In this document: piece after piece, positions 3,303-13,015 of the stretch
How the letters are laid out: the number at the start of each line of letters is the position of its first letter
How positions within the stretch are numbered: the stretch's first letter is position 1
NCBI GenBank assembly: GCA_003141795.1
Contig: PLNO01000300.1
Coordinates: forward strand, 53,755 to 99,728
Length of the DNA: 45,974 bases
DNA from: Spirochaetaceae bacterium
GTDB lineage: Bacteria > Spirochaetota > Spirochaetia > SZUA-6 > Fen-1364
Direction of reading: 5' to 3'
Translations under genes and position numbers: made by a program
Notes under the pieces: generated by a model
Told to the model about the DNA's origin: nothing
Seen by the model: only the letters and a program-made list of their open reading frames with translations
Database searches by the model: none

Positions 3303-3989
3303 ATGTCCCCGTTCACTCGTGATGCGCTCGGTATCGTCGCTTCGTACGTGTTCGTCTTCGGCCTCATCGGGATCGCGACCCTGCTCATGCAGCGGGGCCG
3401 TCTCGCGCCTTCACTGACGCGCAAGATCATCCACATCGGCGTCGCCCACTGGTGGCTCATCGCCATGGCCACGATGGATGACCCATGGGTCGCCTCGGTG
3501 GGCCCGGCGAGCTTCATCGTCATCAACGCCGCGGCCATCCGCATGCGGCTCCTGCCCGCAATGGACGAGGGAACCGGGGGCCGCAACTGGGGCACCGTCT
3601 ATTTCCCCATCTCCTTGCTCGTCCTCGTGAACGTCTGCTGGCGCGGCATCGTGCCGCCCTGGGTGGGGGGAATCGGCGTCCTCACCCTCGGATGGGGGGA
3701 CGGGCTTGCCGCGGTAATCGGTGAGCTGAGCACGGGACCCGGGTGGCGGATCTGGGGCGGAAGAAAGAGCCTCGCCGGCACCGCGGTCATGTTCGGCGCA
3801 TCATTCGTGGTCGCCCTCGTCTTCACGCTCCTGTTCAGCGCGCGGTTCGGTGCCCTGCTCCCCGCCGCGGGGGTGGCGGCGGTCACGGCGGCAGCGGCAA
3901 CCGTTGTGGAGCTCGTGACACCGCTCGGCGTGGACAACGTCACCGTTCCCCTCGCCGTCGTCGCTCTGTACGCCGGGGTGTTCGCGTGA
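3303..3989 (+). CDS. Dolichol/phytol kinase-like integral membrane protein
   Basis: The protein has 228 residues and six to seven hydrophobic segments. An early segment carries LTRKIIHIGVAHWWL, the RK-x-x-H pattern of dolichol kinase, phytol kinase and CDP-diglyceride synthase-like proteins. A later loop has TLGWGDGLAAVIGE and WGGRKSLAGT, matching the family's nucleotide-binding D-G-x-A and G-x-K-[ST] motifs. It probably transfers a phosphate or CMP to a membrane polyprenol or lipid alcohol; the substrate cannot be told. The stop overlaps the GTG of the DUF92 gene (GTGA), so the two are translationally coupled. Related proteins are fused or paired with DUF92 elsewhere. The ATG at 3303 is chosen because it starts just before the first hydrophobic segment; longer frames upstream run through the divergent promoter region. 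Confidence 0.8.
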   Translation: MSPFTRDALGIVASYVFVFGLIGIATLLMQRGRLAPSLTRKIIHIGVAHWWLIAMATMDDPWVASVGPASFIVINAAAIRMRLLPAMDEGTGGRNWGTVYFPISLLVLVNVCWRGIVPPWVGGIGVLTLGWGDGLAAVIGELSTGPGWRIWGGRKSLAGTAVMFGASFVVALVFTLLFSARFGALLPAAGVAAVTAAAATVVELVTPLGVDNVTVPLAVVALYAGVFA

Positions 3990-4804
3990 GTCTCCTGCTG
4001 CTCTTCCTCCTTGGATTCCTCCTCAACGCCGCTGCCTCGGTCCTCGCCCTCTGGCGGGGCGCGATCGATCCGGGCGGCGCGGCGGCAGGCACGGTGGTCG
4101 GCACGTTGATCTTCGCCTGCGGCGGCCCCCTGTTTTGGCTCGTCCTCATGGCGTTCTTCGTCTCCTCCACCGCGCTAGGCATGGTGGGCCGGCGGCGCAA
4201 AGCGGGGCTTCACACCATCAACGAAAAGGGCGGCCGACGGGACGCGCTGCAGGTGCTGGCCAACGGCGGCATGGGCATGCTCACCGCCGTGCTCTACCGG
4301 CTTTCAGGCAATGCCGCCTGGGCCGCGGGGTTCGCCGTCTCCTTCGCCTCGTCGAACGCCGACACGTGGGCGAGTGAGCTCGGCGTGCTGTCCCGGTGGG
4401 AGCCGGTGTCCCTCCTCACCTTCCGCCGCGTTCCGCGCGGCATTTCGGGAGGGTTGAGCGGCCTGGGGAGCCTTGCCTCGCTGGGGGGAGCGGCCCTGAT
4501 CGCCGTGGTCTTCGCGCTGATCAACCTGCCGCTCGCCATCGTCCATGGAAGCTTTCTTCGCGTGGCAGGGGTGATCGCGGCCGGGGGGTTCGTCGGGTCT
4601 CTCGTCGACAGTCTTCTCGGAGCCACGCTGCAGGCCCAGTACGCCGGCCCCGGCAACGAAGTGACGGAGCATCGCAGCGCGGAGGACGGAACGCGCAACG
4701 CACTCGTGCGCGGCATCCCGTTCGTCGACAACGACGTTGTGAACTTTGCAAGTTGTGCCGCGGTGACCGTGGCTGCTGTACTGCTAGCACCGCTGCTGGG
4801 ATAG
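3986..4804 (+). CDS. DUF92 family membrane protein
   Basis: The protein has 272 residues from a GTG that overlaps the previous stop by four bases. It begins with a leucine-rich hydrophobic segment (MSLLLLFLLGFLLN) and has about six membrane segments. FASSNADTWASELGVLS, the PRGISGGLSGLGS loop and GSLVDSLLGATLQAQY are hallmarks of DUF92 (TMEM19-like) proteins, some of which act as phytyl-phosphate kinases in isoprenoid salvage. The C-terminal FVDNDVVNFAS is also typical. Together with the upstream kinase-like protein it suggests a two-step phosphorylation of an isoprenoid alcohol; that pathway is an inference from neighbour and family. It converges with the sugar kinase at 4815, ten bases away, with no obvious terminator between them. 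Confidence 0.85.
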   Translation: MSLLLLFLLGFLLNAAASVLALWRGAIDPGGAAAGTVVGTLIFACGGPLFWLVLMAFFVSSTALGMVGRRRKAGLHTINEKGGRRDALQVLANGGMGMLTAVLYRLSGNAAWAAGFAVSFASSNADTWASELGVLSRWEPVSLLTFRRVPRGISGGLSGLGSLASLGGAALIAVVFALINLPLAIVHGSFLRVAGVIAAGGFVGSLVDSLLGATLQAQYAGPGNEVTEHRSAEDGTRNALVRGIPFVDNDVVNFASCAAVTVAAVLLAPLLG

Positions 4805-4814
4805 TGGTCCGGCG

Positions 4815-5843
4815 CTACCGCTGGACGCGACCCGATCCCGATCCCGACATGAGCGCCTTCACCTCCGCAACCGACAGGAGGGGCAGATCGCCGGGAATCG
4901 AATGCTTGAGGCACGAGGCGGCCACGGCAAACTCGAGGGCGTCCTGTGCATTGCCGAGGCTGGAAAGCCCGTAGATCATCCCCGCGGCGAAGGAGTCCCC
5001 GGTGCCCACTCGGTCGACGATGTCGCGGATATCGTACCTCCGTGACACGTGGAAATCGCTACGCGTGTGGAGGATCCCCGACCACCCGTTCTCGTTGGCG
5101 GACCTGCTCTCCCGCAGCGTGATGGCGATCTCTTTCAACGAAGGAAACTCCGCGAGCACTTTCTCCGCGAGGCCGCGGTACTTCTCCGCTTCCAGCTTTC
5201 CCGATTCCACGTCCACCGCGACGCTGATGCCGAGGGATTTCTGGCAGTCTTCCTCGTTTGCGATTGCAACGTCGACGAATTTGACGATTTCCCGCATGAT
5301 TTCCGGAGCGCTCACCCCGTACTTCCACAGGTTCTTCCTGTAGTTCAGGTCACAGGAAACCGTGAGCCCTTTCTGCTTCGCCTTCTTCACGGCCTCCAGG
5401 GAGAGCTCAGCGGCGCTCGCCGACAACGCGGGAGTGATGCCCGTGATGTGAAACCAGGTCGCACCCGAGAGCGCATCGTCCCAGGCCACGTCGCCGGGCT
5501 TTGCCTCGGCGATGGCGCTGCCCCGCCTGTCGTAGATCACGACGGACGGCCGCTGGTTGGCTCCTGCCTCCAGGAAGTAGATGCCGAGCCTTTCGCCCGT
5601 GCGCATGATGCACGAGGTATCGATGCCGTGCCGCCGGAGCTCGCCGACGCAGGCGTCGCCGATGGCGTTCTGCGGGATGAACGAAACAAAGGACGTGTCG
5701 CATCCGAACCGCGAAAGTGCCGTTGCGACGTTCGCCTCCCCGCCCCCGAAGGTCGCTTCGAAGGACGGGCTCTGGAAGAACCGCTCGGAGCCGGGCGGCT
5801 TCAAACGCAGCATGATCTCCCCGAACGTGACGTAGCGTGCCAT
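4815..5843 (-). CDS. PfkB family sugar kinase, probably 2-keto-3-deoxygluconate kinase
   Basis: The protein has 342 residues, usual for PfkB/ribokinase enzymes. Near the N-terminus [12 protein letters not shown] and [16 protein letters not shown] form the sugar-binding Gly-Gly region. Near the C-terminus [16 protein letters not shown] is the second PfkB signature with the catalytic Asp of GTGD. The opening and the DLNYRKNLW segment resemble KdgK, which phosphorylates 2-keto-3-deoxygluconate with ATP; fructokinase or ribokinase activity cannot be ruled out. A strong GGGGGAG ribosome site lies five to six bases before the ATG. It is transcribed leftward just after the tRNA gene at 5860-5933 and may be co-transcribed with it. 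It sits outside the island in host-like DNA. Confidence 0.85.
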
Positions 5844-6146: not shown

Positions 6147-6231
6147 GCCGGCGTGATGAAATGGCAGACATGCCAGACTCAAAATCTGGTGAGGCGCAAG
6201 CCTCGTGTCGGTTCAAGTCCGACCGTCGGCA
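6147..6231 (+). tRNA. tRNA-Leu (CAA), island insertion site
   Basis: This is an 85-base type II tRNA. Acceptor GCCGGCG pairs with CGTCGGC, the anticodon stem CCAGA/TCTGG encloses CTCAAAA with anticodon CAA, a long variable arm GAGGC/GCCTC is present, and the T-arm carries GTTCAAGTC. CCA is not encoded. The tyrosine recombinase begins 195 bases downstream in the same direction, the classic layout of an island inserted at the 3' end of a tRNA. No second copy of the last 20 or so bases was seen to position 45974, so the other attachment site likely lies outside the window. Confidence 0.95.
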
Positions 6232-6425: not shown

Positions 6426-7613
6426 GTGGGAAGGACGAAAGAGGAGTTCGTGGTACTGCCGCCAAATGCGCACAGTCCGTTCTATAGAATACGCTGGGGC
6501 GACGATCCAAAGCGTTCCGCCGTTTCACTCCATACGAGCGACAAGCGGGAGGCGTACAAACGCGCCGAGCGGCAGCTTCTGGAACGACACACGAAAAGGC
6601 GAACTCTGGAAGACTACGTCAACGAGCGCGAGCTCTTCGTGTGGGGCAAGTGCAAGTACGTGATCAACCGTATCGCTGAGGGGCACTCCTTCCCAATCAA
6701 GACGGTCAAGCAGCACTGGGGCCATCTCCACAACTACATCCTTCCCCATTTCGGGCGACTGCCTCTCGATGCGATAAGGCCGACGGACTTCGAAGACTGG
6801 CGCCTAACCCTTTCGCTCGCGAATTCCACAAAAAACCACATAAGGAACGCATTCAGGATCGTCATGGAGCTTGCGCGGAAAGACGGCCTCATCACCTCCA
6901 ACCCGATCTCGTTGACCAGCCAAGTCGAAAAGAAGCAGTACAAGCACAGGGACATCTTCACTGAAGCCGAAATTCAGACCCTCTTCTTTGATGATGAGGT
7001 GAAGTTGCTGACGATCTGGAAACGGCTGGACTGGCTGGCCTTTTTCAGCGTCTACGGGACATCGGGAATGAGGATGGGAGAGGTCCGTGGCCTCTGCTGG
7101 GAACAGATCAACTGGACCTCCGCTACGATCTTCGTAGATCGGGCAATCAATTGCGATGGAAAAATGGGACCAACCAAGGATAGGAGGCCAAGGCTGGCCG
7201 AATTGGAGCCTGAGGTTCTCGGTAGACTGAGGGAGTGGCAAACGATGAGCACAACAACCGCTCCCCAGAACCTGGTATTCCCAGGTGCGATCAAGGGAAG
7301 GCCGTACTCAAAGGAGACAGTCATCGAGCACTTCCGCAGCGCGATCCGCGTATCGGGAATAGCGATCGCGGGCAGGAACTTGGTTTCTCACTCGTTCCGC
7401 CACACCTATTCGACCGAAACTGAGGACGGGACATCGGTCGAGGACCACGAGCCAACGCCGACGTCGGCACTACACTCGACGGCCGAGATGGCTCAGCGGT
7501 ACGACCATCCTACGCACGAGCACCTACTGCGTAGGACCAATAGGAAAAGAGCGGAGCGTCAAAGGGCTCCGCTCTCAGACCGTGGAAGAGCGACCTCTCA
7601 AAGGCAGGGATGA
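6426..7613 (+). CDS. Tyrosine recombinase (island integrase)
   Basis: The protein has 395 residues. The N-terminal half resembles an arm- and core-binding SAM-like domain (LHNYILPHFGRLPLDAIRP). The catalytic half shows GMRMGEVRGL (first Arg, about residue 215), HSFRH (His-x-x-Arg, about 322) and AEMAQRYDHP (nucleophilic Tyr, about 360), with a His in ALHSTAE just before it. The stretch between HSFRH and the Tyr (about 30 residues) is unusually acidic and lacks the expected LGH context, so it may be weakened or reflect small sequence errors. It presumably integrates the island at the adjacent tRNA-Leu. A perfect 10-bp inverted repeat (7548-7557 with 7566-7575) lies in the 3' end of the gene. 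Confidence 0.9.
   Translation: MGRTKEEFVVLPPNAHSPFYRIRWGDDPKRSAVSLHTSDKREAYKRAERQLLERHTKRRTLEDYVNERELFVWGKCKYVINRIAEGHSFPIKTVKQHWGHLHNYILPHFGRLPLDAIRPTDFEDWRLTLSLANSTKNHIRNAFRIVMELARKDGLITSNPISLTSQVEKKQYKHRDIFTEAEIQTLFFDDEVKLLTIWKRLDWLAFFSVYGTSGMRMGEVRGLCWEQINWTSATIFVDRAINCDGKMGPTKDRRPRLAELEPEVLGRLREWQTMSTTTAPQNLVFPGAIKGRPYSKETVIEHFRSAIRVSGIAIAGRNLVSHSFRHTYSTETEDGTSVEDHEPTPTSALHSTAEMAQRYDHPTHEHLLRRTNRKRAERQRAPLSDRGRATSQRQG
7548..7575. repeat. Perfect 10-bp inverted repeat in integrase 3' end
   Basis: AGAGCGGAGC and GCTCCGCTCT flank an 8-base loop. The hairpin sits 38 bases before the integrase stop and upstream of the overlapping small gene. It is GC-rich without a following T-run, so it is not a canonical terminator. 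It could affect mRNA stability or coupling with the next gene. Confidence 0.5.
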
Positions 7614-8337: not shown

Positions 8338-8820
8338 TCAGGCGCTGCCTGGACTCGGGAACTTGAAGGTGAACACAGGGTCGCCCTCTTCGTCGACGCC
8401 GTAGGAGAGGAGCGTGCCGAACATCGCCCCGAAGAGCAGCTCGTCGATGTGTTCAAAAGGCGTGAGGGCATCAGTCTCCCTCGTACCCCCAGCAACATTC
8501 GCGAGTTCCTCTCCGAGTTCAAGGGGAATCTGGACTTCCGCCCGCCTATGAACACCCGCGCGGGCGAGTGCACGGGTGATGCCTTGTCCAATCGCAGTCG
8601 CGACCTCCTCCGATTTGCATTTCACGTCTACCGCGCTTCCCCCGTCCCGCGTGAACTTACCCCGCACTGACAGAGTGTTCCCCTTCACACTCACTGTATC
8701 CGCCTGCTCGATGCGGAGATCCTCGCCTTCGGCATTGAGGTCCTCCACCACCACAATGCTCCTGAGGTCCTCGTCAAGGCCCGCTGTGACCTCCGACGCA
8801 CAATCCACTGAGATCTTCAT
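8338..8820 (-). CDS. Hypothetical acidic protein, 160 residues
   Basis: The ATG at 8820 follows a strong AGGGAGGA ribosome site, the best support for this gene. The protein is acidic (MKISVDCASEVTAGLDEDLRS; VVVEDLNAEGEDLRIE) with repeated short beta-strand-like segments (SVKGNTLSVRGKF) and a C-terminal HIDELLFGAMFGTLLSYG that looks helical. No catalytic motif is seen. It lies just downstream, in the transcription direction, of the CRISPR-like unit at 9051-9148. Its role is unknown. Confidence 0.65.
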   Translation of the reverse strand: MKISVDCASEVTAGLDEDLRSIVVVEDLNAEGEDLRIEQADTVSVKGNTLSVRGKFTRDGGSAVDVKCKSEEVATAIGQGITRALARAGVHRRAEVQIPLELGEELANVAGGTRETDALTPFEHIDELLFGAMFGTLLSYGVDEEGDPVFTFKFPSPGSA

Positions 8821-9050
8821 CTCTTCCTCCCTTGTTCCCGAGCCGCACGTATCAAGATCGGTCCCGCTCCATGGTCTGGGGAGATCGCGGCAGCCTTCAC
8901 CCTAGTCGGCTTCCAGATCCACAGTAGAGGCGCTTTCGCCGCCCCTCTGTGTCGGGAAACAGGAATCCCCTTACGAGCCTCCCTCTCCCTTGGAGAATCG
9001 CCCAGTCGACATTTGATTTCGCCGCCTTGGCCCGCAGCTTTAGCCCTTCT
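8821..9050. other. Intergenic stretch between acidic-protein start and CRISPR-like unit
   Basis: Apart from the ribosome site of the leftward gene at its left end, nothing is recognised here. A search for a further GTTTCAACTCAC unit one period (65 bases) to the left of 9051 was negative. Confidence 0.5.
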
Positions 9051-9148
9051 GTTTCAACTCACGCATCCCCGAAGGGGTGCGATGCCCTAGCACTGGCGAA
9101 ACCCAACCCACCCAAGTTTCAACTCACGTGCCATGCGGCACGACCGAC
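9051..9148 (-). CRISPR. CRISPR-like unit: two diverged repeats and one 32-base spacer
   Basis: Two units start with the same 12 bases, GTTTCAACTCAC, at 9051 and 9116, 65 bases apart. Read on the minus strand each is about 33 bases, carries a hairpin and ends in the same 13 bases CGTGAGTTGAAAC, like the 3' end and 5' tag of type I-C/III repeats. Repeat 9051-9083 has stem CGCACCCC against GGGGATGCG with one bulged base. Repeat 9116-9148 has stem CGTGCC against GGCACG around GCAT. The stems differ in sequence but both pair. The spacer is 9084-9115. There are no cas genes in the window. It may be a remnant, an orphan mini-array using host Cas proteins, or a structured RNA that only resembles CRISPR. 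Confidence 0.55.
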
Positions 9149-9156
9149 TCACTGAC

Positions 9157-9165
9157 GATATAGCA
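9157..9165 (-). promoter_or_regulatory. Possible extended -10 for the CRISPR-like unit
   Basis: On the minus strand TGCTATATC matches an extended -10 (TG-n-TATA-like hexamer) about eight bases before the first repeat in transcription order. There is no good -35 at 16-18 bases. If used, transcription would start almost at the repeat, as in short leader-driven arrays. Confidence 0.3.
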
Positions 9166-9272
9166 CAATAAAGACCGCTACTCTCTGATAACACGCGCTT
9201 TTCCAGAATTGTGCGTTATGCGACACACTGAAACTTCAGGTTCGAACCTTCGCCCTTGCTGTCAGTCTCCGC

Positions 9273-9710
9273 CTATCGCCCTGCCACCCACGACCACGCG
9301 ATCCCTCGCGCAAATGCTCCAATCCACTCGGGAGCGGGAACTGATTGGGATGAAAACCGCACCAAAACCGCCCATGGCCGAAGGGGCATCTTCAGTTGGC
9401 CCAAGGGGCTGCCAAACGTGCGGTGGCACAAACCGTCCATCTCGTTCCAGGCCCGTCTACCATCCTCGCTCCCGACGAAGATCGCAGCCACAGGGATCCT
9501 CGCCCGAAAGACGCCGAGTGAGAGGGCACCATCACTTGTGCCCCCTTGCAGGGTGAAGATCTCCTGTCCAGGCACCGTCACCGCGGAGCCACCGAAGCCC
9601 TGTGAAAGGACAGCCAAAATCGTCGGCATGAGCGAATCTTCTCCGTCGCGCGGAGCAATCTCGGTGAGATGGCATGTGTTGAAGTCAACGAAAACGATCG
9701 CATCGGTCAT
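9273..9710 (-). CDS. Hypothetical protein, 145 residues
   Basis: The start at 9710 (MTDAIVFVDFNTCHLTEIAP) is preferred over the longer frame from 9755 because GGAGAGGGAAG lies just upstream of it. The protein has hydrophobic strands (AIVFVDFN, ILAVLSQGFGGSAVTV, ARIPVAAIFVG) suggesting a small alpha/beta fold, and a tryptophan-rich C-terminus. I recognise no family or catalytic motif. It is divergent from the DnaB-like gene at 9848, about 137 bases away. Confidence 0.6.
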   Translation of the reverse strand: MTDAIVFVDFNTCHLTEIAPRDGEDSLMPTILAVLSQGFGGSAVTVPGQEIFTLQGGTSDGALSLGVFRARIPVAAIFVGSEDGRRAWNEMDGLCHRTFGSPLGQLKMPLRPWAVLVRFSSQSVPAPEWIGAFARGIAWSWVAGR

Positions 9711-9847
9711 TGCTATTCTTCCCTCTCCTTCCCGCTCGGTGAAGGTCCCAGACACCGCGATCGGCTATGGCCGTCGGGCGCGCAAGTATCTTGGGCAGTC
9801 TGGCAGAGGTTCGATCGTGACTTCAGCGGTCGCGTTCGTTTTGCGAG

Positions 9848-12184: not shown

Positions 12185-13015
12185 TTGAGAGTGATCTCGT
12201 GGAACTGCAACAGAGCAGCCTCATCAAGAAGAAGCTGGGAATACCTGCTTGAGCTTGCCCCAGATGTCGCACTCCTCCAAGAGGTTGGTTCGATCCCAGA
12301 GTCCGTCAAGGCACTGTATTCAGTACAATCCCAGATCGCCAGAAAAGAGAATGGAGCCGAACAAAGCTTCATGACCGTCGTTCTTGCCAAGCCTGACATC
12401 CAGGCAAGCTTCCAACTGAGCAGCAGACTCACGTGGGTGCAGAGGGAACTCCAGTGGTTCTCGGGCAACTTCGTGTCATGCCTGCTCAGGGTCGATCCAG
12501 CGACACACCTTCGGGTGGTCTCGGTGTATAGCCCAGCGTGGCCAGTGGCGAAGGGACGATTGGTCGGCGAGGACGTTACCGAGGTGAAACTGACGCTGAA
12601 CAAGGACGTCTGGGCTGCCGACCTACTCTGGGCCGCACTTCGAGAGATTCTACCCAATAGAAAAGAGCCATGGATCATCGCAGGAGACTTCAACTGCTCC
12701 GAGACTTTCGATGCTTGGAAGGACGGGCCCCGCGGCAATAAGGAGTACCTCGATCGGATGAAGCACGTCGGGCTGACCGAATGCCTCAGGCACCATCAAG
12801 GCCGCCTTGTGCCTACTTACCTCAACAAGGACGGCAAGACCCACGAACATCAGATGGATCACCTGTTCGTCACGGGCGATCTTGCCTCAGTCCTGGTCGA
12901 CTGCAAGGTAGGAGACAATGAGGTCGTTTTCCAACAGAAGCTCAGCGACCATCTTCCTATTGTTGCGGACTTCAGCTTCGTGGGGCCTTCAACCCGATCA
13001 GGAGGCCAGACATGA
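12185..13015 (+). CDS. Endonuclease/exonuclease/phosphatase (EEP) family nuclease
   Basis: The protein has 276 residues from a TTG start with AGGGGGA five bases upstream. The EEP metal and catalytic motifs appear in order: SWNCNRAA (Asn, residue 7), ALLQEVG (Glu, about 33), YSPAWP, IIAGDFNCSE (Asp and Asn, about 168-170), QMDHLFVTGD (about 222) and LSDHLPIVADF (Asp-His, about 255). The fold is that of exonuclease III, DNase I and inositol phosphatases. It may cut DNA or RNA; without a targeting domain specificity may come from the neighbour. Its last four bases overlap the ATG of the PLD-type gene, so both are made together. The pair is a candidate two-nuclease module. Confidence 0.85.
   Translation: MRVISWNCNRAASSRRSWEYLLELAPDVALLQEVGSIPESVKALYSVQSQIARKENGAEQSFMTVVLAKPDIQASFQLSSRLTWVQRELQWFSGNFVSCLLRVDPATHLRVVSVYSPAWPVAKGRLVGEDVTEVKLTLNKDVWAADLLWAALREILPNRKEPWIIAGDFNCSETFDAWKDGPRGNKEYLDRMKHVGLTECLRHHQGRLVPTYLNKDGKTHEHQMDHLFVTGDLASVLVDCKVGDNEVVFQQKLSDHLPIVADFSFVGPSTRSGGQT

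Follow-up and report, generated by a model that had tools for sequence, protein, structure and literature searches.

A two-repeat unit with type I-C CRISPR repeat anatomy on a putative island of a Spirochaetaceae bacterium

The locus and its genomic setting

The window, that is, the whole stretch of 45,974 nucleotides analysed here, contains a 13-nt direct repeat (GTTTCAACTCACG on the plus strand) at 9051–9063 and 9116–9128, with a start-to-start distance of 65 nt. On the minus strand, the two copies form the 3' ends of two repeat-like elements, R1 and R2, separated by a 32-nt spacer. The unit is located between two small minus-strand genes (9273–9755 and 8338–8820), and a gene for a tyrosine integrase lies 1.4 kb from it. 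The features are as follows:

6426..7613, plus strand: tyrosine integrase (Phage_integrase), beside tRNA-Leu at 6147–6231; probable left end of the island
8338..8820, minus strand: small gene, 160 aa, near-orphan, with no Pfam or PADLOC family and with NCBIfam matches (HisB) far below the cut-off
9051..9083, minus strand: R2, repeat-like element of 33 nt, consisting of AT, an 8-bp stem CGCACCCC/GGGG(A)TGCG with a bulged A, the loop TTC and the 11-nt tag of R1
9084..9115, minus strand: spacer of 32 nt, G-rich in its first half, with only chance-level matches in the collections searched
9116..9144, minus strand: R1, repeat-like element of 29 nt, consisting of GT, a 6-bp stem CGTGCC/GGCACG, the loop GCAT and the 11-nt tag TGAGTTGAAAC; recognised from sequence, model matches and fold
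9062..9126, minus strand: predicted crRNA-like RNA with an 11-nt 5' handle, a 32-nt guide and a 22-nt 3' hairpin part, deduced from the anatomy and from the type I-C crRNA in the available part of PMC5965380
9273..9710, minus strand: small gene with a database prediction of 145 aa (the ORF starts from 9755) and two relatives on short contigs

The tRNA-Leu gene together with the integrase suggests a defence-bearing island. At 12185–43292, between two integrases and past them, genes were observed for a DrmC-like phospholipase, RmuC, a PDC-S37-like helicase/nuclease of 1850 aa, an AbiJ-like protein, a kinase and HmaA/HmaB. The PfkB gene at 4815–5843 was 80% and 78% identical to its counterparts in the MAGs L001 (Spirochaetaceae) and L002 (Spirochaetes), and the DUF92 gene at 3743–4804 had a 60% match in G001, the genome of L001, and none in 11 other genomes, including that of L002.

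Each gene flanking the unit is known from two contigs, with one further relative for 8338–8820 and two for 9273–9710; a search of viral contigs yielded no relatives of either gene. Nor did 26 genomes of the order yield any for the 145-aa protein, although an empty answer carries no weight in that search. The predicted model of the 145-aa protein had a mean pLDDT of 70 and no PDB match at E ≤ 0.001, and that of the 160-aa protein was too poor for use. Both genes were also considered as candidate anti-CRISPRs and rejected, as no family was found in Pfam, PADLOC (defence library) or NCBIfam except for the HisB matches noted above.

The earlier note on this DNA had described the unit as lacking cas genes, and this held for the scanned ORFs of the window: no Cas family was detected in 30 ORFs with Pfam, and cas3-cas5d-csd1-cas7 genes, as found beside the array in a type I-C locus, were absent from the ORFs scanned. 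In 20 ORFs (19 of them among the 30) compared with PADLOC, the one Cas-labelled row among the families listed concerned the 1850-aa protein, which weakly matched type-IV RecD (E 0.004); the listing covered the best 25 of 31 families for one ORF and the best 25 of 61 for another. A CRISPR-associated transposon (CAST) was rejected as well, since the 30 ORFs had no Tn7-like transposase family in Pfam. A consensus scan gave no promoter for the unit, and no leader was recognised at it.

Repeat anatomy, folding and type I-C assignment

Both elements have the anatomy of a type I-C repeat: (G/A)T, a hairpin closing on C-G and then an 11-nt tag. The earlier note had reported two 33-base units that share their last 13 bases and recur with a period of 65, leaving a gap of 32 nt at 9084–9115. 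The sequence bore out the shared end, the period and the gap, and the length held for R2 but not for R1, which has only 29 nt. The stems of both elements end at the same base of the tag and are fully paired except for one bulge. The R2 stem is two pairs longer than that of R1; its eight pairs are interrupted by one bulged A. With pairs numbered from the stem base, numbers 3 and 4 are changed on both sides from R1 to R2 (T-A to C-G and G-C to A-T), which agrees with the earlier claim of unlike stems that both still pair. When four random substitutions were introduced into the R1 stem, all six pairs were kept in 1.2% of trials. A perfect stem of at least six pairs (G-U allowed) ends at 2.1% of the window positions, and R1 has such a stem. 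The near-identical repeats of an ordinary CRISPR array were not found here: both copies have an unaltered 11-nt tag, but upstream of it the elements differ in 10 of 22 aligned columns (Fisher p 0.013 for one alignment).

The single-element fold energies were −10.0 kcal/mol for R1 and −11.5 kcal/mol for R2, and the 141-nt piece 9030–9170 folded no better than its shuffles (z +0.64). In the minimum-energy fold of this piece the tag of R1 pairs with the spacer, and the same pairing appears in the predicted 65-nt crRNA; GTTTC in the minus-strand spacer can pair with GAAAC of the tag. The spacer also contains four GGG runs on this strand, a possible G-quadruplex.

A short repeat pair within 200 bp is, by itself, not rare in the window, because three pairs of 12-mers at such distances occur there. 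We scored sequence and structure jointly, hairpin and 11-nt tag together, with two covariance models of type I-C repeats. Model R1 was built from 12 type I-C repeats from viral contigs and Spirochaetota, none of them from the window; one row (L234x) was off by a base and another (L093) carried the window's own tag. Model R2, the stricter one, consisted of 10 exact repeats, with the L093 and L234x rows left out. With model R1, the 46-kb window gave only two matches at E ≤ 10, namely element R1 (28.6 bits, E 7.3e-5) and element R2 (23.6 bits, E 1.3e-3); with model R2, the same elements were still the top two (25.2 bits, E 4.5e-4, and 16.4 bits, E 0.078), and with filters off the next-best matches had E 4.1 and 8.9, the E-values of both models being rough. 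The stricter model thus lowered the score of element R2 and left the ranking unchanged. Element R1 stands alone as a match; element R2 is weak alone, but it lies 65 nt away on the same strand and has the same tag. The two-repeat observation was confirmed through the stems and the repeat-model matches rather than through the repeat pair alone.

The tag pair GTGAGTTGAAAC was found in one stretch of IMG/VR, an array with 11 matches on a 392-kb viral contig (array repeat ...GCGTGAGTTGAAAC). This array adjoins Pfam matches for Cas7, Csd1, Cas5d and Cas3, so that the tag is that of a type I-C system. The locus, L093:7790–14924 (cas3, cas5d, csd1, cas7), had no adaptation gene among the nine ORFs compared with Pfam. 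The repeat-model matches and the Cas genes beside the same tag elsewhere allowed the CRISPR-like two-repeat observation to be upheld and narrowed to subtype I-C.

A search for arrays with the same repeat 3' end had been suggested as a check. The exact tag pair GTGAGTTGAAAC was absent from all 26 genomes of the order, 392 of the phylum and 247 of the phylum of genome G003. Related repeats, another point raised earlier, do exist in relatives. Matches of model R1 (which has one row off by a base) were present in 7 of the 26 order genomes, with at most 150 candidates scored per genome; among these seven, G018 had two matches in a seemingly decaying array and G023 a single match. A Csd1 match was found in 36 of 296 Spirochaetota genomes, from which 33 Csd1 stretches were taken after two with split genes and one below the cut-off had been left out. 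An array was present in 26 of the 33, with repeats mostly ending in GTGGATTGAAAC or GTGAATTGAAAC, and none of the repeats printed from these arrays ended in GTGAGTTGAAAC. Judged from these sequence matches, type I-C systems occur in the phylum of the host and, by the repeat model, in its order. The two nearest MAGs had neither a Cas5 match nor a type I-C repeat-model match.

The spacer, which the earlier note had proposed to compare with phage and plasmid sequences, gave only chance-level matches (E 2 or worse). The best match was 17 nt (E 7) among 50,697 phage records and 22 nt at 95.5% (E 2) among 72,556 plasmid records, collections which in our judgement cover the source habitat poorly. With R2 as a 35-nt query, neither set contained a match of 80% coverage. 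In the opposite direction, 1838 spacers (1375 unique) of other arrays were compared with the window; the best match was 16 nt, judged to be at chance level given the number of queries, and none fell in the unit. A regulatory guide against the island itself was also considered and rejected: the best in-window match of the spacer was 20/32, and the third-best score of 19 was reached by 69 of 100 shuffled spacers.

Stem-divergent units on viral contigs

Viral contigs were scanned for paired type I-C tags, which yielded 48, 5 and 33 stretches. We considered 61 clusters with 2–4 tags (60 viral and that of the window) and set aside 31 because of a nearby contig end or additional repeat-like tags next to them. 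Identical stems were seen in 14 of the 30 isolated clusters and different stems in 12 (window included), and the remaining 4 were without a perfect stem. Among the 11 viral clusters with different stems, we discounted L210, which is an artefact, L174, in which the repeats are identical within each of two pairs, and L212, where a single base differs; L169 and L208 showed little difference. The difference was clear in L181, L194, L203, L204, L209 and L213, with the caveats that L203 overlaps possible genes, the first stem of L213 is doubtful and L209 has a further repeat-like match downstream (model R1).

Short viral units with unlike, still pairing stems were represented by L181, L194, L204 and the related viral contigs L216 and L237. 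The last two were excluded from the isolated set by the cluster rule and contain three to four consecutive repeats, each with another stem: CAGTCTC/GAGACTG, CAGCTTC/GAAGCTG (L237 only), CAGCCCC/GGGGCTG and CAGATTC/GAATCTG. The spacers of these units (the units lie at L216:3147–3300, plus strand, and L237:4128–4347, minus strand) start with TAAG, and the two shared spacers are 97% alike. By eye, the L216 unit is followed by a terminator-like hairpin, and the TGCTATACT stretch upstream of the L216/L237 unit resembles the TGCTATATC stretch upstream of R1 in the window. The L237 unit lies between the terminase and portal genes, the L194 unit just before a minor head gene, and the L204 unit has a weak tail-sheath match on one side and a tail-tube gene on the other.

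In L194, the stem-divergent pair (5128–5220) is followed about 1 kb on by a solitary type I-C repeat (6177–6208), with the minor head gene between them. This solitary repeat, found with model R1, is directly 5' of a terminator-like hairpin (by eye), an arrangement much like that of a published RNA anti-CRISPR. A 6-kb viral contig (L158:4562–5606) carries eleven type I-C tags in two groups, with ten different stem readings.

Common-tag pairs in viral contigs were concentrated at guide spacing, with 48 stretches at a gap of 46–62 compared with 5 at 75–105 and 5 at 16–45. This excess bears only weakly on the stem-divergent class, because the 48 stretches include ordinary arrays. Decoy-like pairs also exist: of five new loci at other spacings (L277–L281), at least L278 and L280 have unlike stems. 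The hairpin-and-tag pairs of these two (L278:2216–2332 and L280:267–330) have a decoy-like layout, and the viral contigs that carry them are 485 kb and 147 kb long.

The window unit and its viral counterparts could represent a class of type I-C mini-units, as yet without a name, that occurs on phages and islands and keeps the tag, the pairing and the guide spacing while each repeat has its own stem; we put this forward as a possibility held with considerable doubt. Such an architecture would stop recombination between repeats, and possibly spacer insertion, while feeding a crRNA or a decoy to the host Cas5d. In the open-licence literature searched, we found no account of type I-C mini-units with repeats set apart by compensated stem changes.

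Possible roles of the unit

Several known systems resemble the unit in part. With type I-C arrays, which are processed by Cas5d, it shares the repeat anatomy, an 11-nt tag ending in TTGAAAC, a stem closing on C-G, the 65-nt period and the 32-nt spacer; it departs from them in having only two repeats, whose stems differ, and the rare tag GTGAGTTGAAAC, and the ORFs scanned contained no cas genes. Virus-borne mini-arrays, as presented in the portions at hand of Medvedeva et al. (2019; PMC6858448) and PMC11656645, similarly combine one spacer, the absence of cas genes, a mobile element and an intergenic position; however, they have host-like repeats, some leaders and spacers against related viruses, whereas the repeats in the window differ from each other and its spacer gave no target. 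RNA anti-CRISPRs and solitary repeat units, including RacrIC1 (available text of PMC10651486), likewise involve a type I-C repeat mimic on a mobile element, in an intergenic position without cas genes and beside small genes of unassigned function, but the window has two elements at guide spacing. Finally, the atypical crRNAs of type I-F3b CASTs also contain a guide flanked by highly diverged repeats, according to the excerpt of PMC11406308, while the repeats of the window are of type I-C rather than I-F and its 30 ORFs lack the Tn7-like transposase mentioned above.

What is observed at the locus is two elements of type I-C anatomy on the same strand, a spacer of guide length (32 nt), as in mini-arrays of mobile elements, and an integrase nearby. 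We tentatively favour, at somewhat less than even confidence, the reading that an integrated mobile island here carries a miniature type I-C CRISPR array made up of one spacer between two repeats, which would yield one crRNA with the type I-C proteins of the host. The unit would be transcribed on the minus strand, and resident Cas5d may cut at the base of each hairpin. In the product, an 11-nt handle from R1 would precede the 32-nt guide and the hairpin of R2 would follow it, and this RNA might be loaded into the host Cas5d-Cas7-Cas8c complex and directed against a competing element. The stem sequences would have drifted apart with pairing and tag kept, presumably because both are required by Cas5d; a difference between the stems would also lower recombination between the repeats.

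Type I-C arrays have the same 65-nt period as the unit, and the predicted 11/32/22 layout, compared with the 11-nt handle, 33-nt spacer and 21-nt 3' handle of the type I-C crRNA in the part of PMC5965380 consulted, favours a guide. Further points in favour of a mini-array are the top rank of both elements in models built without the window, the tag in common with the L093 locus, the excess of viral tag pairs at guide spacing, the short viral units with unlike stems and the type I-C systems in the phylum of the host and, by the repeat model, in its order. The missing target and the burial of the handle in the predicted fold count against one. Also against a mini-array, the ORFs scanned contained no cas genes, the two nearest MAGs gave no Cas5 or type I-C repeat, the consensus scan found no promoter, and R2 was weak in the stricter model. 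In addition, the mini-arrays in the sections available of PMC11656645, PMC6858448 and PMC10848311 carry host-like repeats, whereas the two repeats of the window differ from each other.

In a rival reading, the two tagged hairpins would be tandem decoys of the Racr type, binding the host type I-C Cas5d/Cas7 in dead-end complexes, with the spacer a mere linker. The missing target and the buried handle speak for it. Type I-C Racrs exist on mobile elements (RacrIC1; available text of PMC10651486), L194 has both a stem-divergent pair and a solitary repeat with its terminator-like hairpin (by eye), the shared 5' start of the L216/L237 spacers is odd for independent guides, and unlike-stem pairs at non-guide spacing occur in L278 and L280. 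A decoy, however, needs no guide-length linker, yet one of 32 nt is present here, and the published units were single and matched to known repeats, as far as that text goes. No anti-CRISPR match was obtained with Pfam or NCBIfam in the scanned neighbouring ORFs, a weak argument, since such proteins are often without families. As outlined in the same text, the published search started from known repeats with a 90% identity limit and kept hits without other (partial) repeats beside them; the window has two repeats 65 nt apart, and a unit such as this would probably escape that search. We consider the decoy explanation rather unlikely.

Alternatively, the unit may be what is left of an old, heterogeneous type I-C array, namely its final two repeats, with the cas genes and other repeats gone and with no present function. 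End repeats of ordinary arrays do diverge, some with other still-pairing stems (L199), odd but still-paired stems are seen in the old arrays L199 and L158, and no cas genes, recognised leader or target were found at the unit. Decay in the array L250, on the other hand, breaks stems and changes tags, and a rough count over 64 arrays (1355 repeats, 47 of them variants with stem changes), which was ungapped and included overlapping loci more than once, gave 112 broken pairs, 47 changed pairs still pairing without a double change and 9 compensated pairs. The window pair, with its tag intact in both copies, its divergence confined to the upstream columns and its stems paired apart from one bulge, is unlike the decay of the control arrays; a recent remnant is nevertheless possible, and we regard the remnant explanation as unlikely. 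Chance, or a pair of RNA or DNA hairpins unrelated to CRISPR (for example, protein-binding sites), would be in line with the short repeat pairs that arise by chance in the window, with a joint fold that is not unusually stable and with the weak match of element R2 alone in the stricter model. It seems highly improbable, as the top two type I-C model matches in 46 kb are adjacent, guide-spaced and on the same strand, and the next-best match has E 4.1.

If mobile elements commonly disguise their repeats by two-sided stem changes, units of this kind currently go unnoticed and would be found by screening viral genomes with covariance models. Two questions would then become testable, namely how much stem sequence change Cas5d tolerates and whether one-guide arrays are protected from recombination loss by unlike stems.
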